DNA from: Nitrospirota bacterium
Lineage (GTDB): Bacteria; Nitrospirota; Nitrospiria; Nitrospirales; Nitrospiraceae
Length of the DNA stretch: 64,000 bases
Direction of reading: 5' to 3'
Assembly (NCBI GenBank): GCA_030645475.1
Contig: JAUSMA010000058.1
Span: 1 to 64,000, forward strand
Each line of letters opens with the position of its first letter. Position 1 is the first letter of the stretch. Both the position numbers and the translations under genes were made by a program. Below the pieces are notes generated by a model that was given only the letters and a program-made list of their open reading frames with translations, was not told where the DNA came from and ran no database searches. Positions 17,741 through 50,494 of the stretch are shown here, in pieces.

Positions 17741-17802
17741 ACAACATCTCTTTTTGATCTGTTCGGAATGCTCGCTCGTGACCGATGACTGGAGGAATGC
17801 CC

Positions 17803-19143
17803 ATGCCGCTGGATGATCACCCAACGGTCCAACTGGTCCGAGGAAAACTCTCCCACCGATCTACCCAGGTTTCAGCGAGCACATTGAATGCGGAATTGCT
17901 CCGGAAGCTCTGTCTCGATACAGGGGCCGACGACGTGGGCTTTGTGGAGCTGGAACGACCGGCTCTGGGCGATCAACGCGACGATATCCTTCACCTCTTC
18001 CCGCAGACTAAGTCCTTCATCAGTTTCGTCGTGCGGATGAACCGCGAACCGATTCGCAATCCGGCTCGGTCAATCGCCAACCTAGAGTTTCATCATGCAG
18101 GCGATCGCGTGAATGACATCGCCCGAACCATCGTGGAGGCACTTGAGGCTCGCGGGGTGCGAGCCTTGAACCCCTCGATGGGATTCCCGATGGAAATGGA
18201 CAGATTTCCCGGAAAAATCTGGGTGATCTCCCACAAACCGATCGCAGTAGAAGCTGGACTCGGCCAGATGGGCATTCACCGGAATGTCATTCATCCAAAG
18301 TTCGGCAATTTCATGCTCTTGGGCACCATCGTGCTGGATGCCGAGATCAGCGCCTACGACAGCCCCATCGCCTACAACCCCTGTCTCGAATGCAAACTCT
18401 GCGTGGCGGCCTGCCCGACAGGCGCCATCGGGGCCGACGGCCACTTCGATTTCTCCGCCTGCTACACGCACAACTACCGGGAGTTTATGGGTGGCTTTAC
18501 CGATTGGGTCGAACGGATCGCGGACAGCCCAAATGCGACGGTATACCGGCAGAAAGTCAGCGACGCCGAAACCACCTCCATGTGGCAGAGTCTGTCCTTC
18601 GGCGCCAATTACAAAGCGGCCTACTGTCTCGCCGTCTGTCCCGCTGGAGAGGAAGTCATTCCGCCGTTCTTGGCTAATCGTAAGGCCTTCACCGCCGATG
18701 TCGTGACACCGCTCCAGGACAAGATCGAGCCGATCTACGTCGTGCCAGAGTCCGATGCCGAATCGCACGTGGCCAAGCGCTTTCCCCAGAAGACCGTTCG
18801 ACGGGTCGGCAACGGCCTTCGCCCCTCCTCCATCGAGCAGTTCCTGGCCGGCCTTCCCCACGCCTTTCAACGAGGGAAAGCAGAGGGTCTCGACGCGACG
18901 TATCACTTTAGCTTCACCGGTGCCGAAACGCGGCAAGCCACAGTTACTATTCGCAACAAGAACATCTCAGTGCAGGACGGTCATATTGGCACCCCGCATC
19001 TGCGCCTCACCGCCGACAGCCAGACATGGCTTCGGTTTGTACGCAAAGAAGGCAGCCTCATCTGGGCCTTGCTGATACGCACGATTCGTCTCACCGGCTC
19101 GCCGAAGCTGCTAATGACGTTTGGTAAATGTTTTCCGTCGTGA
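17803..19143 (+). CDS. QueG-like 4Fe-4S protein fused to an SCP2 domain
   Basis: A 446-residue protein, started at the ATG seven bases after GGAGG. Residues ~20-190 resemble the N-terminal part of epoxyqueuosine reductase/reductive-dehalogenase-like proteins. Then comes a ferredoxin cluster CLECKLCVAACP (Cys194, 197, 200, 204) and a second, shorter cysteine group CLAVCPAGE near residue 279. The last ~115 residues look like an SCP2/sterol-carrier lipid-binding domain. True QueG lacks SCP2, so a redox reaction on a hydrophobic ligand is more likely than tRNA modification. The sigma-factor gene follows 15 bp later, suggesting one transcript. Confidence 0.75.
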   Translation: MPLDDHPTVQLVRGKLSHRSTQVSASTLNAELLRKLCLDTGADDVGFVELERPALGDQRDDILHLFPQTKSFISFVVRMNREPIRNPARSIANLEFHHAGDRVNDIARTIVEALEARGVRALNPSMGFPMEMDRFPGKIWVISHKPIAVEAGLGQMGIHRNVIHPKFGNFMLLGTIVLDAEISAYDSPIAYNPCLECKLCVAACPTGAIGADGHFDFSACYTHNYREFMGGFTDWVERIADSPNATVYRQKVSDAETTSMWQSLSFGANYKAAYCLAVCPAGEEVIPPFLANRKAFTADVVTPLQDKIEPIYVVPESDAESHVAKRFPQKTVRRVGNGLRPSSIEQFLAGLPHAFQRGKAEGLDATYHFSFTGAETRQATVTIRNKNISVQDGHIGTPHLRLTADSQTWLRFVRKEGSLIWALLIRTIRLTGSPKLLMTFGKCFPS

Positions 19144-19158
19144 AAGAGATCGATTGCC

Positions 19159-20424
19159 ATGGCCGATGACGCTTCCAATCAGGCACGTGAAACGGTGGAG
19201 GCGATCTACCGCACGGAATCGCGGCAGGTGCTGGCCACCTTGATCCGCCTACTGGGCAACTTCGACGTAGCCGAAGAGGCGATGCACGAAGCCTTCGCCA
19301 TTGCCGTCGAACAATGGTCACGGGAAGGTATCCCCGCCAATCCCAGAGCCTGGCTCGTCTCAACCGGTCGTTTCAAGGCCATCGACGGCATGCGACGCCG
19401 CGCCCGACTGGATGCATCGGTCGCGGAGCTCGCCAAACAACCGGAACTGACAACGAGGCTCGATGCCGAGCCACAAGAGGACGAGCATGTCGAGGACGAC
19501 CGGCTCCGATTGATCTTCACCTGTTGCCATCCGGCCTTGGCACCGGCAGCACAGATGGCCATGACATTGCGCGAAGTCTGCGGCCTCACCACAGAAGAAA
19601 TTGCGCGCGCATTTTTGATCAAGCCCCCAACCGTCGCGCAGCGCATCGTGCGGGCCAAGAACAAAATCCGCGACGCCCGCATTCCCTACGAAGTGCCGTC
19701 CGAAACAGAATTGCCCGATCGACTGGACGCCGTGCTCCGAGTGGTCTACCTCGTCTTCAACGAGGGCTACTCTGCCTCATCTGGCGACGCAGTCACACGT
19801 CACGATCTCAGTGGGGAGGCCGTTCGTCTGACGAGAGTCCTGACCACACTGATCCCGCACGCAGAGGTACTGGGACTGCTGGGGCTCATGCTCTTGCAAG
19901 ACTCACGGCGGGCCGCTCGCACCTCAGCCACTGGCGAACTGATTCTCTTGGAAGATCAGGATCGGTCGCTTTGGAATCGTGAGCAGATTGCAGAGGGCGT
20001 AGCGTTGGTGCAGCGGGCCTTCTCGATAGGCCAGGTCGGACCCTATACCGTTCAAGCTGCGATCGCAACCGTACATGCACAAGCCCCGACCGCCGCCGCA
20101 ACGGATTGGCAGCAGATCGTCGAACTCTACAGTCTCTTACTCCGAGCAGAACCCTCGCCGGTCATCGAACTCAACCGCGCGGTCGCCGTGGCGATGCGCG
20201 ATGATCCGCTCGCCGGTCTGGAGTTGGTCGATGCCATTCTGAAGAGAGGCGATCTGGACGCCTATCACTTGGCCCATGCCGCGCGAGCGGATCTCTGCCG
20301 GCGGCTGGGACGGACGAAAGAGGCCCGCACCTCTTACCAACGAGCCCTGAGCCTGACACAGCAGGAACCGGAGCGGCGGTTTCTGGAAAAACGGCTGGCC
20401 GATTTGACGAGTTCAATCGGCTAG
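19159..20424 (+). CDS. ECF42-group sigma factor with C-terminal extension
   Basis: A 421-residue ECF sigma factor. Region 2 lies at about 12-80 (FDVAEEAMHEAFAIAVEQW) and region 4 at about 120-178 (LREVCGLTTEEIARAF, then helix-turn-helix). The long extension (about 185-421; DUF6596 then TPR-like helices) is diagnostic of the ECF42 group, where it is reported to be needed for activity. ECF42 genes usually sit beside DGPF proteins and lack an anti-sigma factor; both hold here. The ATG start has no strong ribosome binding site beyond GAAAGAGA. The signal it senses is unknown. Confidence 0.92.
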   Translation: MADDASNQARETVEAIYRTESRQVLATLIRLLGNFDVAEEAMHEAFAIAVEQWSREGIPANPRAWLVSTGRFKAIDGMRRRARLDASVAELAKQPELTTRLDAEPQEDEHVEDDRLRLIFTCCHPALAPAAQMAMTLREVCGLTTEEIARAFLIKPPTVAQRIVRAKNKIRDARIPYEVPSETELPDRLDAVLRVVYLVFNEGYSASSGDAVTRHDLSGEAVRLTRVLTTLIPHAEVLGLLGLMLLQDSRRAARTSATGELILLEDQDRSLWNREQIAEGVALVQRAFSIGQVGPYTVQAAIATVHAQAPTAAATDWQQIVELYSLLLRAEPSPVIELNRAVAVAMRDDPLAGLELVDAILKRGDLDAYHLAHAARADLCRRLGRTKEARTSYQRALSLTQQEPERRFLEKRLADLTSSIG

Positions 20425-20500
20425 ACACATCTGGATGCAGGCTCGTAAGCACTTGATTCAGATGGACTAATCCTTGTCCATTCCAAGAAGGTTGAGGCGA

Positions 20501-20526
20501 TGTCGATTTTGAGATCTCCCAGCGAC
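20501..20526 (+). promoter_or_regulatory. Candidate ECF42-dependent promoter
   Basis: TGTCGA at 20501-20506 and CGAC at 20523-20526 are separated by 16 bp. This is the -35 and -10 form reported for ECF42 sigma factors (TGTCGA and CG(A/T)C). It lies between the sigma gene and the first VOC gene, giving a predicted leader of about 35 bases ending in GGAGG. It likely drives the downstream DGPF/VOC operon. Confidence 0.65.
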
Positions 20527-20567
20527 AATCTCATGACAGCAGGATGAAGGACTCATTGGAGGATGCC

Positions 20568-20978
20568 ATGGCGAAGCCGACGAAGAAAAAGGTGAAGCAG
20601 CCCCTGCAGGCGGCAAATGTCTGCTGGTTTGACGTTCCCGCAGACGATCTGAAACGGGCAAAAAAGTTCTATACGTCGTTATTCGGTTGGAAATTTGCGA
20701 AGTTGTCCGCGGCCATCGCCGACTACTGGCACATCGACACCGGCGGAAAGGATGCCTCGCCGGACGGCGGGCTCTTACCCCGCATGCATCCCGGGCACAC
20801 CATTACGGTCTACGTAACCGTCCCATCGGTGGACAAGGCCCTGGCCAAAGTCCAGAAACTCGGCGGCACGGTTTGCAAGCCGAAGACCGCGGTGCCACAC
20901 ATGGGTTATTTCGCCATCTGCGAGGACACGGAACATAACGTCTTCGCCCTCTGGGAACCGAACGAGCGGGCTGCATAA
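20568..20978 (+). CDS. VOC-family (glyoxalase/dioxygenase-fold) protein
   Basis: A 136-residue single VOC module. I use the ATG five bases after GGAGG rather than the frame's first ATG. VCWFDVPADDLKRAKKFYTSLFGW is the standard first beta-alpha unit; the second half ends with YFAICEDTEHNVFALWEP, where the Glu and preceding polar residues are usual metal ligands in VOC enzymes. Proteins of this type act in glyoxal, antibiotic or aromatic metabolism, or only bind ligands. As the first gene after the ECF42-type promoter it is a probable sigma target. Confidence 0.85.
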   Translation: MAKPTKKKVKQPLQAANVCWFDVPADDLKRAKKFYTSLFGWKFAKLSAAIADYWHIDTGGKDASPDGGLLPRMHPGHTITVYVTVPSVDKALAKVQKLGGTVCKPKTAVPHMGYFAICEDTEHNVFALWEPNERAA

Positions 20979-21016
20979 CGAAGACAGATCCACGGATCAC
21001 TCATAGGAAACATGCC

Positions 21017-21373
21017 ATGAAATACCTCTGCCTAATCTACCTTGAAGAGAAAACACTCCACGCCATACCCCAAAACGAGCGGGTCGCGCTCTCGAACGAG
21101 TCCATGGCCTACTGCGGTGAGCTGCAGAAGAACGGCCAGTTCATCGCGGCTTCGCCTCTGCACCCGGTAGAAACCGCCACGACGGTGCGGGTGCGAGGGG
21201 GAAAAGTCTCCACAACCGATGGGCCCTTTGCCGAAACGAAGGAACAGCTGGGCGGCTACTTGCTGATCGACGTCAAAGACCTGAACGATGCTGTACGGAT
21301 CGCCTCGAAGTTTCCCGCAGCCCAGTACGGGAGCATCGAGGTGCGGCCGCTAAAAGAAGACGGCTGTGCGTAA
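21017..21373 (+). CDS. YCII-related DGPF protein (copy 1)
   Basis: A 118-residue YCII/DGPF protein. It has the ferredoxin-like fold start MKYLCLIYLEE, the SPLHPVETATTVRVRGGK beta-hairpin, the DGPF signature at 68-71 (TDGPFAETKEQLGGY), and a C-terminal GSIEVRPL strand. DGPF proteins are the usual partners and targets of ECF42 sigma factors; their biochemical role is unknown, though the related YciI has a His-Asp pair. It lies 38 bp after the VOC gene in the same orientation. Confidence 0.9.
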   Translation: MKYLCLIYLEEKTLHAIPQNERVALSNESMAYCGELQKNGQFIAASPLHPVETATTVRVRGGKVSTTDGPFAETKEQLGGYLLIDVKDLNDAVRIASKFPAAQYGSIEVRPLKEDGCA

Positions 21374-21409
21374 TCAGCGAACGATCGCGATCATGCCGGG
21401 AGTCATACC

Positions 21410-21784
21410 ATGAAATTCTTGTTGATCGTGCATCATGACGAAGAGGCGTTCGAAAAGATCGAGAAAGAGACGCGACAGGCACTGCTCGCCGACTCTATCG
21501 AGTTGACCCATCAGCTTCATGCCGCAGGACAATACGTCCATGCCTCGCCGCTCCATCCGGCTGGTACCGCAGTGATTGTGAAAGTACGCGAGGGCAAACC
21601 GCTCGTGACCGACGGCCCCTTCATCGAAACGCGCGAGCAGATCGCAGGCTATTTCCTGATCGACGCGCGGAGTCTCAGCGAGGCGGTCGGGGTCGCCGTT
21701 CGGGTTCCTGGAGCGAGGATTGGAACCGTCGAGGTAAGGCCGCTGATCGAGATCACGGGATTGCCCGCAGCGGGAAGGTGCTGA
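21410..21784 (+). CDS. YCII-related DGPF protein (copy 2)
   Basis: A 124-residue paralogue of the preceding gene: [14 protein letters not shown] at the start, [23 protein letters not shown] at 68-71 ([20 protein letters not shown]), and GTVEVRPL near the end. The same alignment positions in both copies point to tandem duplication, though the sequences have diverged widely. GGGAG precedes the ATG and the gap to copy 1 is 36 bp. Likely the same transcript. Confidence 0.9.
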
Positions 21785-21855
21785 GCTCAGAGGATTACAT
21801 CCAGATACAAAACCGTTTCTTGCGAGATGTGACTCGATGCAAGGGAGCAACCGCC

Positions 21856-22293
21856 ATGCCCACAATCACTCCGTTCTTATGGTTTGACGGCAGAGCCGAA
21901 GAGGCCGCCAGGTTCTATACGTCGATCTTCAAGGATTCGAAGATCGACAGCGTCTCGAAGATGTCCGCCACATTCCATCTCAATGGGCAACAGTTCATAG
22001 CCTTAAACGGCGGCCCGCAATTCCCCTTCACCGAGGCCATCTCCTTCTTCGTGGATTGCCAAACCCAGGAGGAAGTCGATGAGCTGTGGGAAACGCTCTC
22101 GGCCGGAGGTGAACCGAGACGTTGCGGTTGGCTAAAAGACAAATTCGGGGTGTCGTGGCAAATTATCCCATCTATATTGGGCGAGCTGTTGCAGGATGAG
22201 GATGACGCGAAATCCGACCGAGTCATGCGGGCCATGCTGCAGATGGACAAGATCGATATCCAAGGACTCCAGCAGGCCTATGAACACCCATAG
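21856..22293 (+). CDS. PhnB-type VOC protein
   Basis: A 145-residue protein of the PhnB/3-demethylubiquinone methyltransferase-like VOC group. [21 protein letters not shown] and the later [35 protein letters not shown] and a C-terminal [13 protein letters not shown] helix are all typical. The start is the ATG after AAGGGAG. The annotation as a methyltransferase common for this family is misleading; there is no SAM site. It lies inside the DGPF array, which often includes such proteins. Confidence 0.88.
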
Positions 22294-22341
22294 AGTCGTC
22301 ACGAATACATTCGACTGATTTGCGTACGAGGAGGGCTCACG

Positions 22342-22773
22342 ATGCGATTCATGGTTCTGGTCAAAGCCACGAAGAATTCTGAGGCGGGCGTCATGCCGAG
22401 CGAACAGTTACTGACGGAGATGGGGAAGTTTAACGAAGCACTCATGAACGCCGGGGTACTACTGGCAGGCGAAGGCCTTCAGCCCAGCTCCACAGGCACT
22501 CGCGTGAAATTTTCAGGAACCACGCGCACCCTTATCGACGGTCCCTTCGCTGAGACGAAGGAGCTCATTGCCGGCTATTGGCTGTGGCAAGTGCAGTCGA
22601 AGGACGAGGCGATCGAATGGATCACGCGCTGCCAGAATCCGGCCGGCGACGGCAACGAAGGCGAGATTGAACTGCGTCAAGTCTTCGAAGCGGAAGACTT
22701 CGGGGCTGAGTTCACGCCTGAGTTGAAGGAGCAAGAGGAGCAGGTCCGGGCGCAGACTGCGCACAACAAGTAG
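22342..22773 (+). CDS. YCII-related DGPF protein (copy 3)
   Basis: A 143-residue DGPF protein of a different subgroup from copies 1 and 2: MRFMVLVKATKNSEAG, LLAGEGLQPSSTGTRVKFSG, IDGPFAETKELIAGYW (DGPF at 66-69), and a long acidic C-terminal tail from about residue 110. This LxGEGLxPS subgroup is the form most often met near ECF42 genes. GAGGAGGGC precedes the ATG. It is nine bases upstream of the SRPBCC gene, so co-translation is likely. Confidence 0.92.
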   Translation: MRFMVLVKATKNSEAGVMPSEQLLTEMGKFNEALMNAGVLLAGEGLQPSSTGTRVKFSGTTRTLIDGPFAETKELIAGYWLWQVQSKDEAIEWITRCQNPAGDGNEGEIELRQVFEAEDFGAEFTPELKEQEEQVRAQTAHNK

Positions 22774-22782: not shown

Positions 22783-23310
22783 ATGCTGAAGAACATCCTG
22801 ATCCTCGCCGTGAGCCTCATCTCAGCCGCTCTCATGTATGCTGCGACCAAGCCCGATACGTTCCGGGTTCAACGGACGGCAACCATCGCGGCTCCGCCGG
22901 AGAATGTCTTCGGACTCATCCAAGATCTGCATCAGTGGGCCTCCTGGTCGCCCTGGGAAAAGATGGACCCGGCGATGAAGAAATCCTATAGCGGCGCGCC
23001 TCAGGGGGCGGGCGCCGCGCTCGACTGGGACGGCAATAACGATGTCGGTACAGGACGCATGGAGATCATCAGCACAGTTCCTTCATCACGGGTCGTAATC
23101 AAGCTCGACTTTCTGAAACCGTTTGAAGCCCATAACCAAGCGGAATTCACCGTGGAAGGCAGCGAGTCTGCGACAAGCGTGACCTGGGCCATGCATGGCC
23201 CGCAGCCCTTCATCATGAAGGTCATGGATCTGGTGATGGGCATGGACAAGATGGTCGGAAAAGACTTTGAAACCGGCTTGGCCAATCTGAAACAATTGGC
23301 TGAGAAATAA
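22783..23310 (+). CDS. SRPBCC/polyketide-cyclase-like protein with N-terminal membrane anchor
   Basis: A 175-residue protein. A hydrophobic segment (about 3-20) anchors or exports it, and the remainder is a START/SRPBCC helix-grip domain: RVQRTATIAAPPENVFGLIQD, LHQWASWSPWEKMDP and VTWAMHGPQPF. The cavity normally binds a hydrophobic ligand. GGAGG lies before the ATG. It follows DGPF copy 3 by nine bases. Ligand unknown; small SRPBCC proteins are recurrent in DGPF loci. Confidence 0.85.
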   Translation: MLKNILILAVSLISAALMYAATKPDTFRVQRTATIAAPPENVFGLIQDLHQWASWSPWEKMDPAMKKSYSGAPQGAGAALDWDGNNDVGTGRMEIISTVPSSRVVIKLDFLKPFEAHNQAEFTVEGSESATSVTWAMHGPQPFIMKVMDLVMGMDKMVGKDFETGLANLKQLAEK

Positions 23311-23325: not shown

Positions 23326-23928
23326 ATGCGTATCATGAATCTCGCTATCACAACTCTGTGCCTGATGCTGACCGTCTCGCCGGCCCTCGCCAAAGAGAAG
23401 AAACACGAAAAGCCGATGGACCAGCAGGCAATGATGGAGCTCTGGAAGAAGCTGGCCCAGCCCGGCGAGCCGCACAAGTTGTTTGCCAGTCTGGCCGGAA
23501 GCTGGACGACGCAGACCAAAGAATGGATGGAACCGGGCAAGCCGCCGACGGAATCCACCGGAACCGCGGAAACAAAAATGCTGCTGGATGGACGATTTCT
23601 CTACCAGGAATACAACGCCCAGATGATGGGGCAGCCCTTCTCCGGTATCGGGATCGACGGATACGACAACGTGACCAAGAAATATGTCACCGCCTGGATC
23701 GACACCATGGGAACCGGGATCTTCTTCATGGAGGGCACGGCCAGCGCCGACGGCAAGACCATCACGTTGAAAGGGTCGCACCCTGAGCCGGGCGGCGGCA
23801 AGATGTCCCATCGCGCGGTCTGGAAGATCCAGGACGCCAACAACCAAACGTTCGAGATGTACGGGACGCACGGCCATGGTGGCAAGGAAATGAAGTTCCT
23901 CGAGATCGTCTATACCAGGAAATCGTGA
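23326..23928 (+). CDS. Secreted DUF1579 protein
   Basis: A 200-residue protein with a signal peptide (1-22, cleavage after ALA). The mature domain matches DUF1579: KLFASLAGSWTTQTKEWMEPG, FLYQEYNAQMMGQPFSGIGIDGYD, and late KMSHRAVWKIQD. The fold is a lipocalin-like barrel suited to small hydrophobic ligands. AAGGAGG is well placed before the ATG, 15 bp after the SRPBCC gene. Periplasmic location is inferred from the signal; function is unknown. Confidence 0.85.
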   Translation: MRIMNLAITTLCLMLTVSPALAKEKKHEKPMDQQAMMELWKKLAQPGEPHKLFASLAGSWTTQTKEWMEPGKPPTESTGTAETKMLLDGRFLYQEYNAQMMGQPFSGIGIDGYDNVTKKYVTAWIDTMGTGIFFMEGTASADGKTITLKGSHPEPGGGKMSHRAVWKIQDANNQTFEMYGTHGHGGKEMKFLEIVYTRKS

Positions 23929-24001: not shown

Positions 24002-24436
24002 ATGCAACGGACGATTGGCATGTTGGCATTGGCCCTGATGCTGACCGGGCTCAGTGGCTGTAGTTATCTATTCTATCCTCGTGCGGGCGACTACGCGACG
24101 CAGGCCAAAGGCGCAAGCGGCGTCGAGACGATGATCAATTTGACAAATATGATAGAAGCCACGGCGGCGAAAGCCAAGGGCGGCAAGGGCGTCGATACCG
24201 CGTTCGATGACCTTCACAACCAGCTCCACGCCCTCATGGATTCCTTCTGCGGGGTAACCGAGGCACAGTCGAAAACGCCGGCATACGACCTGGCCAAAAC
24301 GCACAAAAAAGAACTCAGCGCCATATTTGGTCGGCTGTGGAAGTTCAAAGACGAGCAACCGCAGCGCGACCAGCATTTGGATCTCCTGAGCACCGAGTTG
24401 AAAGAATTGCGAGAGACATTACAAACCTTGAAGTAG
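24002..24436 (+). CDS. Small predicted lipoprotein, helical
   Basis: A 144-residue protein: signal then LSGC with lipidated Cys20. The mature part is helical, with an AKAKGGKGVDTAFDDLHNQLHAL stretch and a leucine-rich C-terminal helix that may form a coiled coil. A strong AAGGAGG precedes the ATG. It is 73 bp after the DUF1579 gene and 20 bp before the propeller gene. No family is recognised; it may be an envelope partner of one of these. Confidence 0.7.
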   Translation: MQRTIGMLALALMLTGLSGCSYLFYPRAGDYATQAKGASGVETMINLTNMIEATAAKAKGGKGVDTAFDDLHNQLHALMDSFCGVTEAQSKTPAYDLAKTHKKELSAIFGRLWKFKDEQPQRDQHLDLLSTELKELRETLQTLK

Positions 24437-24456: not shown

Positions 24457-25614
24457 ATGAAACTGTCGACCGCACCAGCCAGTAGCGGGGCCGTCACCTT
24501 GTTGATCGGCACCAGAAAAGGCGCATTCACACTGAAGAGCGACCGGACGAGGCGGACATGGAAACTCTCGGCTCCGATCTTCCTCGGCCACATCATCCAT
24601 CACGTCGTGTGCGACCCGCGGGACCGCCGCACGATGTTGATGGCGGCCAGTACAGGGCATCTGGGACCGACGCTCTATCGTTCCACCAATGCCGGGAAAA
24701 CCTGGAAGGAATCGCCGGCTCCGCCGGCCTTTCCCAAACTTCACGAAAGCGAGAAGGGCCGATCGGTGGGTCACACCTTCTGGCTGACGCCCTGCCACGC
24801 GAACGAACCGAACGCCTGGTACGCCGGCACCTCGCCGCAGGGCCTCTTCCGTTCCGATGACGGAGGGGTCACGTGGAAGCCGTTTTCCTCTATCAACGAC
24901 GATCCGCAATACCGCGAGTGGATGGGCACGGTGCAGGACGGCACGCCGGACGGCCCGAAGCTGCACTCGATCCTCGTGGACCCGCGCGATCCCACACATC
25001 TCTACTTCGCCATGTCCGGCGGAGGCGTGCATGAATCTGTCGATGGCGGCAAGACCTTCGTGCCTCTGGTGCAGGGACTCGACATCGTGGAGGGGCTCGA
25101 TCCCGCCGTCGTCACCTTCCACGATCCCCATTGCGTCCGGCTCTGTCCCAGCAATCCGGACCGGCTCTATCAGCAGAACCACTGCGGCATCTACCGCCTC
25201 GACCGGCCTTCGAATACCTGGGTACGGATCGGCAAGAACATGCCCAAGAAAACCGGCGATATCGGATTCCCCATGGTCCTGCACCCGCGTAATGCGGACA
25301 TGGCCTGGGTCTTTCCCATGGACGGATCGACGGTGTGGCCGCGCGTGAGTCCCGGTGGCAAGCCCGCCGCGTTTACGACTAAGAACGCCGGCAAGAGTTG
25401 GACGCGCCAAGACAAAGGCTTCCCGAAGTCGGGCGCCTGGTGGACGGTGAAACGTCAGGCCATGACCCGCGACGCACATGATCCCGTCGGGCTCTATGTG
25501 GGCACGACGCAGGGTGAGATCTGGGCGAGCCGGAACGAGGGGGCGACCTGGGCCTGCATCGCCAGGCATCTGCCCGAAATCTATTCGGTCGAAGCGGTCG
25601 CACTCGGACGATGA
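24457..25614 (+). CDS. BNR/sortilin-type beta-propeller protein
   Basis: A 385-residue protein begun at the ATG after CGGAGG. It contains repeated BNR/Asp-box units: LLIGTRKGAFTLKSD, YRSTNAGKTW, FRSDDGGVTWKPF, HESVDGGKTFVPL and ASRNEGATWACIARHLP. These fold as a six- or seven-bladed propeller as in sialidases and photosystem assembly factor HCF136, but the sialidase catalytic arginine triad is not evident and no signal peptide is seen. The stop overlaps the next start by 4 bp (ATGA). A binding or scaffold role is more likely than glycoside hydrolysis. Confidence 0.82.
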   Translation: MKLSTAPASSGAVTLLIGTRKGAFTLKSDRTRRTWKLSAPIFLGHIIHHVVCDPRDRRTMLMAASTGHLGPTLYRSTNAGKTWKESPAPPAFPKLHESEKGRSVGHTFWLTPCHANEPNAWYAGTSPQGLFRSDDGGVTWKPFSSINDDPQYREWMGTVQDGTPDGPKLHSILVDPRDPTHLYFAMSGGGVHESVDGGKTFVPLVQGLDIVEGLDPAVVTFHDPHCVRLCPSNPDRLYQQNHCGIYRLDRPSNTWVRIGKNMPKKTGDIGFPMVLHPRNADMAWVFPMDGSTVWPRVSPGGKPAAFTTKNAGKSWTRQDKGFPKSGAWWTVKRQAMTRDAHDPVGLYVGTTQGEIWASRNEGATWACIARHLPEIYSVEAVALGR

Positions 25615-25871
25615 CGATCCATATCCCCAGCGCCTTGCGGTCCTATACGAAGCAGAAGGCTGAGGTGGAGGCTGAAGGCCGGACGCTGGCGGATATGGTG
25701 TCGGCATTGGATCAACGCTATCCTGGCATTCGATTCCGCATCATCACGGAACAGGATACAATCAGACCGCACATCAGAATTTTCGTGAACGACCAACAGC
25801 TCTCGCACCTGACTGCACCGCTTCAGCCTGAGGATCGGATCTACATCGTCTGCGCCCTCAGCGGCGGATAA
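25611..25871 (+). CDS. MoaD/ThiS-like ubiquitin-fold protein with di-Gly end
   Basis: An 86-residue beta-grasp protein. It begins MTIHIPSALRSYT, has EGRTLADMVSALDQRYPGI and FVNDQQ with a following LQPEDRIYIVCALSGG; the terminal Gly-Gly is what E1-like enzymes adenylate before thiocarboxylation. No E1, MoaE or ThiG gene is nearby. The ATGA overlap with the propeller gene implies coupled synthesis. A sulfur carrier or a protein tag are the two options. Confidence 0.88.
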   Translation: MTIHIPSALRSYTKQKAEVEAEGRTLADMVSALDQRYPGIRFRIITEQDTIRPHIRIFVNDQQLSHLTAPLQPEDRIYIVCALSGG

Positions 25872-25923: not shown

Positions 25924-26784
25924 ATGGCTCCACAACCGACCGCACAGCAACTCATCGAGGGTCAACGTCAGGATTGGAACCGTGTCGCCGGCGGCTGGGA
26001 AAAGTGGGATCGCGTGTTCGACGAGCAGATGGCCTTTCTGAACCATCGGCTCATCGCCGACGCCCGCCTTCGCGCGGGTCTCCGCGTCCTCGATCTCGGC
26101 TCCGGAACCGGCTACCCCGCCCTGCTGGGCGCCCAAACTGTCGGAGCATCCGGCAGCGTGGTCGGCATAGATCTCGCCGAGCATATGCTGGCTGCCGCCG
26201 ATCGAAAAGCCAAGCGTCTCGGCCTGACCAACGTCTCCTTCAAAACCGGCGACGTCACGACGCTGCCGTTTGAGCCCAACTCGTTCGACGCCATGACGAG
26301 TCGCTTCTGCCTGATGTTTCTCCCTGAGATTCCCAAAGCCGCATCAGAGATTGGACGGGTTCTGAAACCCGGAAGCTGGGTCGCAGCAGCTGTCTGGTCC
26401 GTGCCGGAAAAGAATCCTTCGATCGGACTCTCGATGGCCGCCATCAAACAAGTCATCGAGCTGCCACCGCCGGATCCAGCCGCCCCGGGGATTTTCAGAT
26501 TGGCCAAACCGGGCGAGCTCGCCGGAATCTTTCAGCAGGTAGGATTGATCGATGTGACCGATCAGGAGTTCCTTGCGGAATGGTCCTATGCGTCGGCTGA
26601 GGAGTACTACACCAGCCTGATGGAAATCGCCGCGCCGGTCCAAAATTTGATGGCCAAGCTGACTAACGCGCAGAAACAAGACGTCAAGCAGCGCATCACT
26701 CAGGCCGCATCCAACTATATACGCGGTGGCCGCATCGTATTCCCGATGGCTGTGCGGATTGTCACAGCGCGCAAACCCCTCTGA
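25924..26784 (+). CDS. UbiE-like class I methyltransferase
   Basis: A 286-residue SAM-dependent enzyme. VLDLGSGTGYP (about 55-65) is motif I, VVGIDLAEHML binds the SAM ribose, and DVTTLPFEPNSFDAMTSRFCLMFLPE corresponds to motifs II and III. The C-terminal half is helical. The ATG follows AGAGAGG. It lies 52 bp after the MoaD-like gene and eight bases before the TfoX-like gene. Substrate unknown. Confidence 0.87.
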   Translation: MAPQPTAQQLIEGQRQDWNRVAGGWEKWDRVFDEQMAFLNHRLIADARLRAGLRVLDLGSGTGYPALLGAQTVGASGSVVGIDLAEHMLAAADRKAKRLGLTNVSFKTGDVTTLPFEPNSFDAMTSRFCLMFLPEIPKAASEIGRVLKPGSWVAAAVWSVPEKNPSIGLSMAAIKQVIELPPPDPAAPGIFRLAKPGELAGIFQQVGLIDVTDQEFLAEWSYASAEEYYTSLMEIAAPVQNLMAKLTNAQKQDVKQRITQAASNYIRGGRIVFPMAVRIVTARKPL

Positions 26785-29045: not shown

Positions 29046-29645
29046 ATGCACAAGCAGTTTGCCTCGTCTCTTGCCTTCAGTGGATTGCTGCTCATCATGG
29101 GCGGCTGTAACACGACAGAATCGTCTGGTTCCAAGATGATGGCTGCCGAGACAAAGCCGGCAATGGCCCCCTCGATGGCGGCCCCGTCTGGCCCTGATGG
29201 CACCGTAGCCCTTCCCGCCGACTACAAGTTCTGGCCCAAGTTCCTGGTCGATATCCCAAAAGGCGAAGCCAAACAGGTGCGCGACATCTACATCAATCCA
29301 ACCGGCGCGAGAACATCAGCAGGACAGAACTTTCCGAACGGTACGATCATGGTGATGGAGATCTACAAGGCCAAGATGGACGGCGACAAGCTGGCGACCG
29401 GCATGGATGGGAAGCCGGTGAAAGGCGACCTGGCGAAGGTGTTTGTGATGGGGAAGGAACAGGGCTGGGGCGACAAGCTCCCCGACGATCTGAAAAACGG
29501 CGATTGGGCCTACGCCGCCTATGACGCGACCAGCAAACCCCTGATGGAAGACTTCACGAAGTGCCGCGCCTGCCATATGCCGTTAGCGCAGAAGGATTTC
29601 GTACATCGGTACGATGAGTACTTCGAGAAGCGCGGACGGATGTAG
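29046..29645 (+). CDS. Cytochrome P460-family lipoprotein
   Basis: A 199-residue protein. A signal sequence ends in MGGC, with Cys21 as a likely lipid anchor. A P460/CytP460 domain follows from about 55: YKFWPKFLVDIPK, RDIYINPTGA and a C-terminal haem site CRACH (Cys173, Cys176, His177). In ammonia oxidisers cytochrome P460 turns hydroxylamine to N2O or NO through a Lys-haem crosslink; the required Lys and Glu would need alignment. Many Nitrospira-type bacteria carry P460-like proteins. AGGAGG is well placed. It is monocistronic, ending in a strong terminator. Confidence 0.85.
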   Translation: MHKQFASSLAFSGLLLIMGGCNTTESSGSKMMAAETKPAMAPSMAAPSGPDGTVALPADYKFWPKFLVDIPKGEAKQVRDIYINPTGARTSAGQNFPNGTIMVMEIYKAKMDGDKLATGMDGKPVKGDLAKVFVMGKEQGWGDKLPDDLKNGDWAYAAYDATSKPLMEDFTKCRACHMPLAQKDFVHRYDEYFEKRGRM

Positions 29646-29657
29646 AGAGACGTTCGA

Positions 29658-29699
29658 AAGGGGGGAGCCGCGAAGGCTCCGCGGCTCCCCCCTTCTTTT
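29658..29699 (+). terminator. Strong rho-independent terminator after P460
   Basis: The stem pairs 29658-29672 with 29680-29694 (about 15 bp, GGGGGGAGCCGCG against CGCGGCTCCCCCC) around a 7-base loop, followed by CTTTT. It lies 12 bases after the P460 stop and separates that gene from the arsenic genes. Confidence 0.9.
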
Positions 29700-29783
29700 C
29701 GCAGATCCCCTCGTAAGAAACACCTCTTCCACACGACTCTCACAAGGCATGCCATTCGATAAATTGCCCGGATATACCGGAGT

Positions 29784-29812
29784 TGACGGACATGCGTCAG
29801 TATTGATACATG
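29784..29812 (+). promoter_or_regulatory. Candidate sigma-70 promoter of the arsM-like gene
   Basis: TTGACG at 29784-29789 and ATACAT at 29807-29812 are separated by 17 bp. The predicted start near 29819 gives a leader of about 30 bases with GAGGAG before the ATG at 29851. No ArsR-type palindrome is visible here. Confidence 0.5.
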
Positions 29813-29850
29813 GAGAGCCATCCATCTCTCTACCCGACCGCGAGGAGACT

Positions 29851-31038
29851 ATGCCCATAGACGAAATTGAGCAGAAAGTCAGCGAGCGCTATGCCAGGGC
29901 CGCCAGTATAGGTGAGCAGATGTGTTGCCCGACCAGTTACGACATGGCGAACCTTAAATCCTTCATCCCGGAAGAGGTCCTCAAGATCTCCTACGGATGC
30001 GGCACCCCGGCCGGGTTAAAAACGGTACGCCCCGGTGAAACGGTTCTGGACATCGGCTCGGGGGGCGGCATCGACTGTTTTGAAGCCTCGCGCCTCGTCG
30101 GTCCGACTGGTCGAGTAATCGGCATCGATATGACCGATACGATGCTGGAGATCGCCCGCAAGAACGCCGTCGTAGTCGCCACCAACCTTGGCTATCCCGC
30201 CTCCAATGTCGAGTTTAAGAAGGGGATGGCCGACGCCATGCCGGTGGCGGAGAATACGGTCGACTTGATCATCTCCAATTGTGTCATCAACCTTGCGCCC
30301 GATAAGCGGAAGGTGTTTCGAGAGATGTTCCGTGTCGCCAAGCCAAGCGGACGATTCACAGTTTCCGATATCGTGGCCGACCAGCCTGTCCCACAGTATT
30401 TGGTTCACGATGCGAAGAAATGGGGCGATTGCTTGTCCGGCGCCCTCACGCTCACCGACTATATGGAAGGCATGACCGACGCAGGGTTCGTCGGTCTTCA
30501 TCTCATCACATCGTCACCCTGGCAGCGAATCGACGGTATCCATTTTTTCTCGGTCACCTTGACCGGCTACAAGCTGCCCGCGCAACTCCCAGCCGCCGCC
30601 CCCCGGTATGCGACGCTTCGCGGCCCCTTCAGTCGCGTGGTGGATGAACGAGGCACGGCCTACCTGCGCGGGATTCCTCAACCACTGACGCCGGACCTGG
30701 CCCTACTCCTCAGTCAGCCTCCCTTTGACTCCTTGTTTGTCTTCTCGCCCAATCCGTTCTGGCTGGACCGGGCCGATCCGCGCTGGGCCTCCGTGACTCC
30801 CTCACAGGACCCGTGCCTGTGGACAGGCGACTTCGCGCTCCTGGCCGGCCCATTCCTGGAAGCCTGCGATGACGACCACCACCTGTTCCGGCGCGGCGAG
30901 CCGGTCGAAATCTGCTCCAAAACGCGCAGGGTGCTCGAAACAGACGGCTATCGCTCGCACTTCGCCATACTCAATCGCGCCAGCGAACCGGCGACAGGTG
31001 ACGCCGTCACCTGCGCCCCTGACGGAGGCTGCTGCTGA
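29851..31038 (+). CDS. arsM: Arsenite methyltransferase-like protein with C-terminal extension
   Basis: A 395-residue protein, started at the ATG after GAGGAG. Residues 1-240 are an ArsM-type methyltransferase: SYGCGTPAG (Cys50), VLDIGSGGGIDC (SAM motif I, Cys76), SNCVINLAPDK (Cys144) and KWGDCLSGAL (Cys194), plus Cys25-Cys26. The Cys50/144/194 set fits the As(III)-binding cysteines of ArsM. Residues ~245-390 form an added domain I do not recognise, ending GGCC. It is followed by arsS, with which it probably makes methylated arsenicals for arsenosugar-type products or detoxification. Confidence 0.85.
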   Translation: MPIDEIEQKVSERYARAASIGEQMCCPTSYDMANLKSFIPEEVLKISYGCGTPAGLKTVRPGETVLDIGSGGGIDCFEASRLVGPTGRVIGIDMTDTMLEIARKNAVVVATNLGYPASNVEFKKGMADAMPVAENTVDLIISNCVINLAPDKRKVFREMFRVAKPSGRFTVSDIVADQPVPQYLVHDAKKWGDCLSGALTLTDYMEGMTDAGFVGLHLITSSPWQRIDGIHFFSVTLTGYKLPAQLPAAAPRYATLRGPFSRVVDERGTAYLRGIPQPLTPDLALLLSQPPFDSLFVFSPNPFWLDRADPRWASVTPSQDPCLWTGDFALLAGPFLEACDDDHHLFRRGEPVEICSKTRRVLETDGYRSHFAILNRASEPATGDAVTCAPDGGCC

Positions 31039-31116
31039 GACTCCCCGAGGAGGCATCACAGCAGTCATCTCTGTCGTCGGCTCAGAAACGATCCTCGGTA
31101 TGATGAGCAGAACTCT

Positions 31117-32157
31117 ATGGCGCTAACCCTGTTGGGACAACAGAGCCCCCTCGCCTCTTCGGCAGAGCAGTTGAGGCTGCTTGGAACCATCACAAGCGCG
31201 CCACCCTTTGAGACACAACTCGATCGGATGGGCCTGCTCCCGCTTCGCGCCACGGGAATCACCGTCTTTCAAATCAACGTCGGCAAACTCTGCAACCAGA
31301 CCTGCCGCCATTGTCATGTGGATGCGGGACCGGATCGGACCGAGAGCATGTCCCGAGAAACGGCAGAGCTGTGCATTCAGGCTCTCGCCAAAACCGATAT
31401 TCCTACGGTCGATATCACAGGGGGCGCGCCGGAACTGAACCCCAACTTTTGCTGGCTGGTCGAACAGGCTCGCACACTCGGTCGCCATGTGCTGGATCGC
31501 TGTAATCTTTCGGTGCTGCTGATTCCTTCACAGGCAAACTTAGCCGAATTCCTGGCCGCTCACCAGGTCGAGATTATCGCCTCACTCCCCTCCTATCAGG
31601 CCAGTCAAACCGATGCCCAACGGGGCGACGGAATTTTTCAGAAATCGATCGAGGCACTGCGCCTGCTGAATCGACTCGGCTATGGTCAGCCTGACAGCGG
31701 CCTCGCCCTAAACCTTGTCTACAATCCGGTGGGGGCTTTTCTTCCGCCCAAGCAAGGGGCCATCGAAGCGCAGTTTCGGAAAGAGCTCCGGGCCAGGTAT
31801 GGCGTCGAGTTCAACCATCTCTACACGATCACCAACATGCCGGTGAGCCGATACTTGGAGTTTCTGGTGGAAAGCGGGAATTATGAGCAGTATATGGAGC
31901 GACTCGCCAACGCCTTCAACCCTGCCGCCGCTACCGGCGTCATGTGCCGCTATACGATCTCCGTCAGCTGGGATGGCAGACTTTATGACTGCGACTTCAA
32001 CCAGATGCTGGATTTACCGGTCGCCCATGGCGCACCCACACACATCCGCGATTTCGATCCGGTGCAGCTGAATCAGCGCCAGATCACGACGGGCAACCAT
32101 TGCTACGGCTGCACAGCCGGGACAGGCTCATCCTGCGGCGGCTCCGTCACGGCTTAA
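31117..32157 (+). CDS. arsS: Arsenosugar-pathway radical SAM protein ArsS
   Basis: A 346-residue radical SAM enzyme. The cluster motif CNQTCRHC (Cys59, 63, 66) is followed by DITGGAPELN, the GGAPE-like SAM contact; the C-terminal DUF3641 half contains CRYTISVSWDGRLYDCDFNQ, and HCYGCTAGTGSSCGG with further cysteines. This domain pair defines ArsS, which couples to ArsM to attach arsenic to a SAM-derived ribosyl group. It begins 78 bp after arsM and likely shares its transcript. It stands convergent to the arsR-acr3 operon. Confidence 0.93.
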   Translation: MALTLLGQQSPLASSAEQLRLLGTITSAPPFETQLDRMGLLPLRATGITVFQINVGKLCNQTCRHCHVDAGPDRTESMSRETAELCIQALAKTDIPTVDITGGAPELNPNFCWLVEQARTLGRHVLDRCNLSVLLIPSQANLAEFLAAHQVEIIASLPSYQASQTDAQRGDGIFQKSIEALRLLNRLGYGQPDSGLALNLVYNPVGAFLPPKQGAIEAQFRKELRARYGVEFNHLYTITNMPVSRYLEFLVESGNYEQYMERLANAFNPAAATGVMCRYTISVSWDGRLYDCDFNQMLDLPVAHGAPTHIRDFDPVQLNQRQITTGNHCYGCTAGTGSSCGGSVTA

Positions 32158-32346
32158 CGTCCGACCTCTCTCCATCTGCCAGAAACTGTCAAATCGCCGC
32201 AGCAATCTCGTCGCGAACCAGGCGAAAGAGGAGCGAACGCACATCTGCGTCCGCAACCGCTGCCGGGTCGGCAAAACTCCAAAACTAGCCCTCTGCCATC
32301 TGACTTCGAGCCGAGTTCCCAGTGCAGAGGAATAGGACTCGTTCCT

Positions 32347-33423
32347 TCATGCGACCACCTCGGGCCTGAACCAATGCTTGGTTCGATTGCAGATCCCACA
32401 GACCGACAACATGACGGGCACTTCCACCAACACGCCCACCACAGTTGCCAAGGCTGCGCCGGACTCGGGGCCAAACAGCGCAATGGCTGTCGCCACTGCC
32501 AATTCGAAAAAGTTGCTGGCCCCGATCAACGCACCCGGTGCGGCGATCGCATAGGGCACATGAAACCGATACATGAGCCCATAGGCCAATGAGGCATTCA
32601 GATACACTTGCAGGAGGATCGGCACGGCAATCAACGCCACATGAACGGTCTTGCCCATGATGTTCTGGGATTGGAAGGCGAAGATGAAGGCCAGGGTGAG
32701 GAGCAAGGCGACGATGGTGACCGGGGCAAACTTCGGCAAGAGCACGTCTTCAAGCCACCGCTGGCCCTGTTGCCGCACGAGCCACATCCGAAGCCCCCAC
32801 CCAATCGCCAGCGGAATCACGATGAAAGCCAGGACTGAGTAGAGCAAGACATCGAATGGAACAGCTAACGATGAAGCGCCACTCACCAACAGGCCGACAA
32901 TCGGCGCAAAGAGCAGGAGCATGATGAGATCGTTCACGGATACCTGGACCAACGTATAGGCGGGGTCCCCATCCGTCAGATAGCTCCAGACAAATACCAT
33001 CGCGGTGCAGGGCGCCGCGGCCAGAATGATCGTCCCCGCGATGTATTGATCGGCTTCGGTCGGTGTGATCCAGGCGGCAAAGACGACGCGGAAGAAGAAC
33101 CAGGCGAAGAGGGCCATCGAAAACGGTTTGACCACCCAATTGACGAACAACGTAATCACGAGCCCGGTCGGACGCGTCCCAACGTGACGAATCGAGGCAA
33201 AATCGACCTTCATCATCATCGGCACGATCATCAGCCAAATCAGCACCGCAATCGGCAGGTTGATATGGCTGCCTTGACCGAACTCCATCGCCCTCAACGA
33301 TTGGACAAGGTCCGGTGCCCCCTGTCCAATCACGATACCCACGATCATGCAGAGGGTTACCCAGATCGTCAGATACCGCTCAAAAGGGTTTAGCTGCTTC
33401 TCGACTACCGGCGGCGTGTGCAT
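32347..33423 (-). CDS. acr3: ACR3-family arsenite efflux permease
   Basis: A 358-residue membrane protein with ten predicted helices. The conserved APCTAMVFVWS contains the cysteine essential in ACR3 transporters, and the paired discontinuous-helix motif GASNFFELAVATAIALFG near residue 315 is typical. It exports arsenite using the membrane potential. It follows arsR after 50 bp, with an ArsR-type palindrome between them. The family call is firm; antimonite transport cannot be excluded. Confidence 0.95.
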   Translation of the reverse strand: MHTPPVVEKQLNPFERYLTIWVTLCMIVGIVIGQGAPDLVQSLRAMEFGQGSHINLPIAVLIWLMIVPMMMKVDFASIRHVGTRPTGLVITLFVNWVVKPFSMALFAWFFFRVVFAAWITPTEADQYIAGTIILAAAPCTAMVFVWSYLTDGDPAYTLVQVSVNDLIMLLLFAPIVGLLVSGASSLAVPFDVLLYSVLAFIVIPLAIGWGLRMWLVRQQGQRWLEDVLLPKFAPVTIVALLLTLAFIFAFQSQNIMGKTVHVALIAVPILLQVYLNASLAYGLMYRFHVPYAIAAPGALIGASNFFELAVATAIALFGPESGAALATVVGVLVEVPVMLSVCGICNRTKHWFRPEVVA

Positions 33424-33440
33424 AGCGCGATCTCCAAGAC

Positions 33441-33456
33441 ATCAAGAATACTTGAT
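33441..33456 (-). promoter_or_regulatory. ArsR-type operator between arsR and acr3
   Basis: ATCAAGAATACTTGAT is a perfect palindrome of 6-bp arms around four bases. It shares CATCAAGAAT with the operator over the arsR promoter. It would allow a second level of ArsR control on acr3. Confidence 0.75.
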
Positions 33457-33473
33457 TCATGAAACAAAAAAAG

Positions 33474-33794
33474 TTAACAGCGCGAGCTAGGCCGAACTGT
33501 TTTCCTGGTTGCTTTGAGCGATCCGACAAGCTCTTCAAGCTCCGCAACCGCTTCGGAATTGATGGCGTAATAGATCCAGCGGCCTTCCGGCCGATCGAGA
33601 ATCAAGCCTGCGTCCTTCAATACTTTTAAATGAAAAGATAGACGCGACTGCCCGGTCTGAAGGGCATCGGTCAGTTCACAGACACACCGTTCCCCCTCCT
33701 TGAGCTGATCGAGAATATCCAGCCTGGTCTCATCTGCCAGCGCATGGCACAACTCGGCGGTTTTGGCCCGATTCTTCCCCGACAAGGTAAGCAT
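33474..33794 (-). CDS. arsR: ArsR-family arsenic-responsive repressor
   Basis: A 106-residue winged-helix repressor. ALADETRLDILDQL starts the HTH domain; GERCVCELTDAL carries Cys37 and Cys39, the As(III)/Sb(III)-binding pair; QSRLSFHLKVLKDAGLI is the recognition helix and GRWIYYAIN the wing. Cys16 near the N-terminus and a last-residue Cys could serve as third ligands. It leads the arsR-acr3 operon. The ATG lies only five bases after the -10 element, so the mRNA may be leaderless. Confidence 0.93.
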   Translation of the reverse strand: MLTLSGKNRAKTAELCHALADETRLDILDQLKEGERCVCELTDALQTGQSRLSFHLKVLKDAGLILDRPEGRWIYYAINSEAVAELEELVGSLKATRKTVRPSSRC

Positions 33795-42017: not shown

Positions 42018-43328
42018 TCAAACTGCGGAATCGTCGAACACCCGCGTGACCTTGCAACTCAGCCGCCCGCTTGCCAATTGAGCCTCCAACTCCTCGCCAA
42101 CCGCGACGTCGTTCGCTCGATGGAGAATCTTCCCAGCCGGCACAGTCTGAAGGATGCTGTACCCGCGACCAAGGACTGCCAATGGACTGAGCGTATGGAG
42201 CTGCGCCAGCAGCGCATGGACGCGATGACGATGTTGCGTCAAGACCACTCCCATCTGCCCCTCTAAGCGCTGTGAAAACTGCGGGACGGTTGCCAACCCT
42301 TGCTTGATCGCGAGAATAGGATTGAGACCGGATAGATCACGCTGTGCTACATGCACCCGCTCCCGCCCTACCGTGAGCAAGCGCTGGAGCATCTCGCGTA
42401 ACCGATCCACCATATCGTCTGTCCGTTGCGCCGCTGCCTGGAGACGGAAACGGACATCCGTCACCCCCCGAATGCCGGCATCGAGCCGCTGCCGCTCAAA
42501 CGCGCAATGCCGGAGCATCATCTGTCCCATACGGACGGTCAGCTCTCGTAATCGCTCCACGATCTCCGCCAAGACCGGAACGACCGCCTCGGCCGCCGCC
42601 GACGGCGTCGGCGCACGGAGGTCGGCCACGAAGTCAGACAACGTCACATCGATTTCATGCCCGACCGCCGACACTACTGGTACATGAGAAACCGCAATGG
42701 CACGCACAACGATCTCTTCGTTGAAACTCCAGAGATCCTCCATCGACCCTCCGCCACGCCCGACAATGATGACGTCCACAGAGCCCCATTCGTTCAACGC
42801 AGCAAGCGCCTCGGCGACTTGACGTCCGGCACTCTCCCCCTGAACTTGAACTGGCGCGATCAGAATCTGGATCGTCGGCCAGCGGCGACAAAGCACGGCC
42901 AGAATATCCCGTATGGCTGCGCCAGTTAGCGAGGTGATGACACCCACTGTCCGTGGAAACACCGGAAGAGGCTTCTTTCTGTCCTGATCGAACAACCCCT
43001 CTTCAGCCAATCGTTCTTTCAACTGTTCAAAGGCCAGCTGTAACGCGCCGACTCCCTTCGGCTCCACCGTATCGAGAACAATCTGATATTCTCCACGCAG
43101 TTCGTACACCGTGAGCCGCCCCCGCACAATCACCTGCATCCCCTCCTGCAAGGCGAAACGCAGCCGCACCGCGCTGGACCGAAACAGCACCGCGCGAATT
43201 TGGCTCGTCTTGTCCTTGAGTGTGCAATAGACATGTCCCGATCCGGGAGCACGAAGGTTGGAGAGTTCGCCTTCCAGCCAGATGTCAGAGAATTGTTCTT
43301 CGATGGAGGTGCGGAGTAGTCCCGTCAA
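42018..43328 (-). CDS. xseA: Exodeoxyribonuclease VII large subunit (start unusual)
   Basis: 436 residues from the first canonical start (TTG 43328). An OB-fold domain (LEGELSNLRAPGSGHVYCTLKD) is followed by the catalytic region (GVITSLTGAAIRDIL, VIIVGRGGGSMEDLWSFN, PVVSAVGHEIDVTLSDFVADLRAPTPSAAAE) and a coiled coil. The family start motif (F-T-V-S-E-L) is coded just upstream of this TTG and in frame, but no ATG, GTG or TTG lies between it and the ymdB stop. An ACG at 43400-43398, seven bases after AGGAG, would give 460 residues and restore the motif. The protein probably extends to 43400. Confidence 0.93.
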   Translation of the reverse strand: MTGLLRTSIEEQFSDIWLEGELSNLRAPGSGHVYCTLKDKTSQIRAVLFRSSAVRLRFALQEGMQVIVRGRLTVYELRGEYQIVLDTVEPKGVGALQLAFEQLKERLAEEGLFDQDRKKPLPVFPRTVGVITSLTGAAIRDILAVLCRRWPTIQILIAPVQVQGESAGRQVAEALAALNEWGSVDVIIVGRGGGSMEDLWSFNEEIVVRAIAVSHVPVVSAVGHEIDVTLSDFVADLRAPTPSAAAEAVVPVLAEIVERLRELTVRMGQMMLRHCAFERQRLDAGIRGVTDVRFRLQAAAQRTDDMVDRLREMLQRLLTVGRERVHVAQRDLSGLNPILAIKQGLATVPQFSQRLEGQMGVVLTQHRHRVHALLAQLHTLSPLAVLGRGYSILQTVPAGKILHRANDVAVGEELEAQLASGRLSCKVTRVFDDSAV

Positions 43329-43412
43329 CTCCGAAACCGTAAAGACCTGTTTCGGAGGAGTAGGCTGAGAGAAGAGATCAGGGAAACCGGGAGAGCTCGT
43401 GGTGAGACTCCT

Positions 43413-45766: not shown

Positions 45767-46345
45767 CCCCCTACAGTCCCGAGACGAGAAACACCCGGCT
45801 TCTCAGCCTCGTCTTGATACAAGGTTGGTCGACGGTTCTATCTTGATGTGGGGGCGCAGTGGAAGATTAGCTGAACGGAAGAGGATAGCCCAACACGCGG
45901 TCTACAGATTCACTCCGAGAACGGACTCCACGGGGATGAAGATCTTGATGGCTTGAGCGAACGAGTACGTCCCGTGCCGGACAGATTCCACGAGGTTCCG
46001 CTACGTCGCCATCCCCTCATCCGCTTGAGAGGATCGAGTGCGCGAACGGGAAGCAGCCGAAGACTCCCTCCATGCACCGCACTGCCAGACGGCAGCAGGA
46101 ACTCCATGAATTTGCCCAACATTTCGAGGAGGCGATACATGAGGAGGACGAACCCTTGCACAGATTCTACTTGTCTCAATTTCACCAGCATCAAGAACCC
46201 ACATCTATTCCGCGGCGACTGCATCATCTTCCCGGATCACTAAACCGGTTTGAGCGTGACCTGATTGTATCCCTACCGTCAACTCCACTACATCCCAACA
46301 GCACAATTCACGATATCAAAGGGGGTTACCCTTTGCAAGTTGAAT
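45767..46345 (-). other. Structured zapA-rny spacer, possible small RNA
   Basis: This is the largest gap in the window (579 bp). Frames here lack domains and look like chance. Read on the minus strand it can form hairpins: one with outer arms GTGCG (near 46083) and CGCAC (near 46040) and inner GGGA/TCCC, and one ahead of rny (45782-45814). The region 3' of zapA is the usual site of 6S RNA (ssrS) in many bacteria. I could not confirm the 6S central bubble by eye, so this is a location-based suggestion. Confidence 0.3.
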
Positions 46346-46889: not shown

Positions 46890-46973
46890 TCCCTCAGTCC
46901 CCTCCTTAAAAGTAGCCCCTACAGGTTGTGGCGCACTATAGAAACTTGTCTAAATCTTGTCAAGAAACGGCAC

Positions 46974-50469: not shown

Positions 50470-50494
50470 CATGTGCTGTGCATTCCATCCAACT

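Follow-up and report, generated by a model that had tools for sequence, protein, structure and literature searches.

A gene for an Asp-box (BNR) beta-propeller and a gene for a ThiS/MoaD-type ubiquitin-like protein lie side by side in bacteria and archaea from about a dozen phyla. The pair, together with the E1 genes linked to it in some groups, suggests a so far undescribed pathway of the sulfur-carrier or tagging kind. Our tentative reading, held with a little less than even confidence, is a widespread three-part pathway composed of an E1 or E1-rhodanese protein, a ubiquitin-like carrier and a beta-propeller, where the propeller would represent a new class of acceptor for a protein thiocarboxylate, either making a sulfur product or setting a protein tag. 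What is new is the unfamiliar partner on familiar activator-carrier chemistry. Each known carrier system of the ThiS/MoaD type leads to a sulfur-containing molecule or to a protein modification, and here the partner has an unexpected fold and occurs in two domains of life. In many bacteria the pair is associated with a stress sigma factor that has obscure target functions, and minimal E1-propeller-carrier operons comprise three genes, making the system testable.

The pair was analyzed in a window of 64,000 nucleotides, part of contig C58 of a 3.7 Mb Nitrospirota genome. The propeller gene (24457-25614, + strand, 385 aa) starts with the ATG at 24457, preceded by GGAGG, and encodes a seven-bladed propeller closely related to PDB 3b7f (Reut_B4987). 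Its TGA stop at 25612-25614 overlaps the ATG at 25611-25613 of the carrier gene (25611-25871, + strand, 86 aa), such that both genes share the four bases ATGA at 25611-25614. A preliminary description had reported a 4-bp overlap with no MoaE or ThiG nearby, and both statements hold: Pfam or NCBIfam scans of neighboring genes between ~14.4 and 33.8 kb gave no MoaE, ThiG or CysM. Searches with the same genome's own proteins as queries gave no match to CysM or JAMM in 1.45 Mb around the pair, and a genome-wide PF00899 search placed no E1 gene within the window.

Inspection of the window carrier reveals a match to Pfam ThiS at 44.4 bits (cut-off 22.5, E 2.5e-11), and its closest solved structures are ThiS/MoaD/CysO proteins. 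The protein ends in LSGG (ALSGG when read one residue further), and thereby combines the attributes of the ThiS/MoaD family, namely a beta-grasp sequence, a C-terminal Gly-Gly and a linked or available E1. Every one of the 113 aligned carriers keeps the Gly-Gly, in a few cases with a single additional residue or with a fused domain, and 112 of them keep R52. Among the ORFs examined, no fusion of propeller and carrier in one chain was noticed, and where a carrier was seen to be fused at all, its partner was a PaaI-like domain. These fusions come from two Catellatospora genomes (L105, 9958-11763; L106, 9685-11769), where the carrier frame, read by eye, continues past the Gly-Gly into a PaaI-thioesterase-like domain; the Gly-Gly would therefore need release.

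The window propeller matches Pfam BNR (9e-10) and, by sequence, PDB 3b7f (E 1e-158), and by eye has no evident signal peptide. A model of the propeller from locus L042 superposes on 3b7f with a Z of 58.9 and an rmsd of 1.1 over 359 residues. PMC2716378 describes seven blades and lists the function of 3b7f as 'not known'. Taken together, the Pfam BNR match and the relative's fit to 3b7f give the repeated Asp-boxes and seven blades of an Asp-box propeller. The 3b7f structure was deposited as a 'putative glycosyl hydrolase with BNR repeats', and proteins of this family are usually annotated as sialidase or glycosyl hydrolase. Across 129 propeller sequences, T19, K21, H170, S187, H225, Q240, H242 and R333 are each at least 98% conserved, followed by H276 (95%) and R296 (91%), and the sole acidic columns conserved to at least 93% are D135 and D196 of the Asp-boxes. 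The database names are argued against because the conserved acids are Asp-box aspartates only; that is to say, the catalytic acid of a sialidase or GH74 glycosidase has no conserved counterpart here. On the predicted strands, K21, S187, Q240, H242 and R296 fall at B-C turns, and H170, H225 and R333 at the starts of strand A. The conserved polar columns, all but H276, would accordingly share one face around the channel. Fold matches following 3b7f are GH74, DAIP, YCF48 (with D1 peptide) and sortilin. Sortilin and YCF48 are peptide-binding propellers of the Asp-box or a related type, with neurotensin and the D1 peptide as their respective ligands, and neither is known to have a ubiquitin-like partner or an E1.

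To what extent the two genes travel together was read from propeller loci across genomes. A propeller-profile scan of GTDB genome contigs returned at least 579 relatives, with 80 loci among the matches listed. Record names of these 80 span Nitrospirota, Proteobacteria, Myxococcales, Elusimicrobia, Acidobacteria, Planctomycetota, Cyanobacteria, Obscuribacterales, Neomarinimicrobiota, Chloroflexi, Actinomycetes and archaea, and the closest relatives of the window propeller among the matches listed are from Nitrospira. The profile-scan loci, surveys by phylum or class and plasmid records formed a first set of 135 loci. A ThiS/MoaD gene lies beside the propeller at 116 of these, counting two (L144, L145) with the carrier ~0.8 kb away. 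Where the carrier is missing, a few loci are cut by contig ends and others lack it (Streptomyces, Rhodobacteraceae, L091). Later surveys found an adjoining carrier at ~64 of 69 additional loci, four of these carriers being recognized by reading the downstream frame. Combined, the surveys comprise 204 propeller loci, drawn from Nitrospirota, Proteobacteria, Cyanobacteriota, Actinomycetota, Chloroflexota, archaea and other groups, and at ~180 of them a ThiS/MoaD gene adjoins in either order. A handful of the loci represent one place found twice. In the first set, the propeller comes first at 98 loci and the carrier at 18, the latter including archaea, Chloroflexi, Pseudomonas and Burkholderia, and an identical 4-bp overlap recurs at 37 of the 98. 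Since adjacency and overlap alike are retained from phylum to phylum, the pair is not a product of chance. Adjacency across phyla, both gene orders and the invariant Gly-Gly support, at the level of sequence, a functional association of propeller and carrier. The gene-neighborhood search proposed in the preliminary description thus finds the pair conserved far beyond close relatives.

Several groups differ from the window arrangement. A second propeller-carrier pair (L018-L026 and gammaproteobacterial L227-L256) has a propeller ~35% identical and, in Nitrospira, 96-aa carriers; one Nitrospira genome (G085) holds both pair types ~14 kb apart. A long-branched archaeal propeller group (L222-L226) has no adjoining carrier gene, nor do the Streptomyces propellers L102, L103, L104, L107, L109, L111 and L031, some of which are adjoined by what appears by eye to be an old-yellow-enzyme-like gene.

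Propellers of this kind bear on an improbable alternative, that the propeller is a stand-alone enzyme (for example of hydrolase, lactonase or isomerase type) with no need for the carrier, the pair merely sharing stress regulation. The pocket residues are kept in Streptomyces and Rhodobacteraceae propellers without an adjoining carrier, and the pocket may therefore serve a carrier-independent function; some archaeal propellers lack the adjoining carrier as well. Yet a carrier next door at ~180 of 204 loci, in both orders, is hardly explained by shared regulation alone, and the propeller lacks a conserved catalytic acid pair such as glycosidases have.

Linkage to an activating enzyme is confined to particular lineages. 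An E1 of the ThiF/MoeB type adjoins the pair at 28 of 30 loci from one gammaproteobacterial order, mostly in the order E1-propeller-carrier, on one strand and closely spaced. It also adjoins at 12 of 23 loci from one cyanobacterial class, on the same strand in some and convergent in others, and here it occurs as an E1-rhodanese fusion. At L083, L077 and L092 the E1-rhodanese fusion follows within ~10 bp after the carrier, and Pfam confirms ThiF and Rhodanese domains in these fusions. A tree of 86 propellers resolves the E1-linked loci into two well-separated clades. Linked E1 genes were found at 0 of 16 archaeal loci, and none adjoining the pair was seen in Nitrospira or Betaproteobacteria loci. 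The preliminary description had stated that no E1 lies nearby; the PF00899 search upholds this for the window, whereas in other lineages an E1 or E1-rhodanese gene does adjoin the pair and the statement fails as a general one. In the wider neighborhoods of the E1-linked groups no other recurrent family stood out beside E1, propeller and carrier; no extra enzyme that might hint at a substrate recurs next to the three.

An E1 gene is present somewhere in 47 of 48 propeller-bearing genomes and in 12 of 14 controls; its mere presence is uninformative because most genomes have one. The genome search for E1-like enzymes that had been suggested earlier returned only two E1 genes in the window genome, both on contig C60. 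There, positions 43000-53000 (L115) hold a CysO-CysM-Mec-like cluster, which, with names assigned by reading sequences, runs ThiS, CysM, MoeB, threonine synthase-like, CysO-like carrier, NIL, MoeB and JAMM. The CysO-like carrier of this cluster ends in AGGSSCQA.

The distribution of E1 genes weighs on the possibility that the carrier serves the propeller as a non-covalent subunit, regulatory or structural, with a Gly-Gly tail that docks and is never charged. Strict pairing, short overlaps and the lack of a linked E1 at the Nitrospira, betaproteobacterial and archaeal loci inspected are compatible with such a subunit. We nevertheless consider it unlikely, as two distant clades have E1 and E1-rhodanese genes next to the pair, and an invariant C-terminal Gly-Gly combined with a linked E1 is characteristic of charged carriers.

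Comparison with described systems places the pair among relatives without assigning it to any of them. The MoaD-MoaE/MoeB, ThiS-ThiG/ThiF and CysO-CysM/MoeZ/Mec systems likewise feature a ThiS/MoaD fold, a terminal Gly-Gly, an E1 or E1-rhodanese activator and a carrier-partner gene pair. In contrast to these, the partner here is an Asp-box beta-propeller, and no MoaE, ThiG, CysM or JAMM gene adjoins. A CysO-CysM-Mec system was rejected for the window pair given the lack of CysM and JAMM matches in the 1.45 Mb and the genome's own such cluster on C60. Molybdopterin synthase (MoaD-MoaE) was likewise rejected, with no MoaE among the window neighbors by Pfam/NCBIfam and none noticed recurring in relatives. 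Urm1-Uba4 and the archaeal SAMPs also pair a Gly-Gly-ended beta-grasp protein with an E1, and Uba4 is an E1-rhodanese fusion like those of L083, L077 and L092; to our knowledge, neither has a propeller partner. The 3b7f protein belongs to the same propeller family and was solved alone by structural genomics, and the accessible passages of PMC2716378 make no mention of a carrier partner. A systematic survey of prokaryotic ThiS/MoaD neighborhoods describes many operon types, none with a propeller (PMC1779556). No paper joining a propeller to a ThiS/MoaD carrier was found in the open-licence literature, a scope that falls short of proving absence. With zero mentions of propellers in PMC1779556 and no such paper otherwise, the earlier impression that the pathway is undescribed is so far supported.

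The proposed mechanism builds on four observations: the conserved pair, the invariant Gly-Gly, the linked E1 and E1-rhodanese genes and the ECF42 link considered below. An E1-like enzyme would adenylate the C-terminal glycine of the carrier, and the adenylated tail would then be converted to a thiocarboxylate by the fused rhodanese domain in some lineages or by another sulfurtransferase. In the window genome, a general MoeB/ThiF would charge the carrier. The top face of the propeller (K21, H170, H225, Q240, H242, R296, R333) would bind the charged tail, and the propeller would either use the sulfur on a substrate or present or hand the carrier to a target. We infer thiocarboxylate formation, a physical complex and acceptor chemistry in the propeller from these considerations. 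Belief is about evenly divided on whether the small protein is a dedicated thiocarboxylate carrier activated by an E1, and the propeller its dedicated partner. The activation half draws on knowledge of the family and on the linked E1-rhodanese genes, while tail binding followed by sulfur use or hand-over by the propeller is suggested by the conserved face. The least secure element is the acceptor step, as docking is not confident and the pocket is kept in propellers without a linked carrier.

Docking was considered in two AlphaFold models built as read-through fusions of the same-frame pairs L042 and L077, using eight paired rows in addition to unpaired ones. Both models reach a pTM of 0.82 with a pLDDT of 55-57 for the Gly-Gly tail, scores approximately those expected of an undocked 85-residue second domain. 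Neither model docks the carrier confidently on the propeller, with few truly paired rows in the alignment, and the models neither show nor exclude a complex. The interaction proposed in the preliminary description therefore stands as functional pairing, on adjacency, both gene orders and the Gly-Gly, and does not extend to a physical complex in these two fusions. Its suggestion that the tail enters the propeller pore is so far unsupported, the tail being floppy in both.

The same parts could be assembled differently, with the carrier putatively conjugated to lysines under stress, as Urm1 and SAMPs are, and the propeller acting as target receptor, adaptor or main target. The invariant Gly-Gly and linked E1 or E1-rhodanese match the components of Urm1-Uba4, the ECF42 stress-regulon context fits, and propellers are common adaptors in general. 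Tagging of this kind nonetheless seems rather unlikely to us: no JAMM gene was found in the 1.45 Mb around the pair, the wider regions show no additional family recurring with E1, propeller and carrier, and the propeller has an enzyme-like polar face that exceeds what an adaptor needs.

The stress context is visible in the window itself, where an ECF42-type sigma factor gene (19159-20424; sigma r2/r4, DUF6596, TPR) heads a co-directional + strand run. It is followed by genes for a VOC/glyoxalase protein (20544-20978), two YCII proteins (21017-21373 and 21410-21784), a VOC-like PhnB/3-dmu-9_3-mt protein (21778-22293), a third YCII protein (22342-22773), an SRPBCC (polyketide_cyc2) protein (22783-23310), a DUF1579 protein (23326-23928) and a small putative lipoprotein of no assigned family with an LSGCS lipobox by eye (24002-24436). 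Genes for the propeller, the carrier, a class I methyltransferase (25924-26784, + strand) and TfoX come next. Gaps within the run are at most ~140 bp, and no terminator-like site was found on its + strand. Other Nitrospira conserve the putative lipoprotein gene ahead of the pair, and the methyltransferase, which recurs mainly at Nitrospira-type loci, is probably not part of the core system.

A sigma factor gene linked with YCII genes, the arrangement typical of an ECF42 regulon, spans 19159-22773, and three of the four YCII genes of the window genome lie inside the run. The sigma factor features used here, including the TPR extension, are those given in PMC8999054. In the 36 genomes for which counts were available, the vicinity of the pair contains 16 YCII genes against 0.55 expected (~30-fold), and nine loci have YCII near the pair against 0.55 expected. 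YCII genes also lie just upstream of the more distant Nitrospira paralog pair. The accessible parts of PMC6180224 and PMC8999054 describe the ECF42/YCII regulon of S. meliloti RpoE10 and P. putida ECF-10, with a TPR-extended sigma factor, YCII, VOC and ligand-binding genes and a TGTCGR-N17-CGTC promoter; they do not name the propeller-carrier pair as a member. The window shares with this regulon the TPR sigma factor and the YCII and VOC genes.

A promoter pattern derived from the S. meliloti RpoE10 ECF42 promoters in PMC6180224, TGTCGR-N16-18-CGTC, gave nine matches at most 350 bp upstream of the pair against 0.92 expected, from eight distinct betaproteobacterial loci. In those genomes the motif also precedes YCII genes and, by reading sequences, VOC, SRPBCC and DUF1428 genes, and the sigma factor is present in seven of the eight. 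No ECF42 promoter was found near the window pair at zero or one mismatch, and the sigma factor is absent from seven of eight other pair- or propeller-bearing genomes tested. For these two reasons, ECF42 regulation is probably a lineage-specific overlay outside the core. In Nitrospira and many Proteobacteria, the pair would be expressed together with the ECF42/YCII stress genes.

Two further features flank the run. Just before the sigma factor gene, positions 17785-19143 encode a ferredoxin-type protein weakly similar to QueG and to reductive dehalogenases. Positions 29614-33794 hold an arsenic cluster consisting of an ArsM-like methyltransferase, the arsenosugar radical SAM protein ArsS (TIGR04167, 454 bits), ACR3 arsenite efflux and an ArsR-type regulator.
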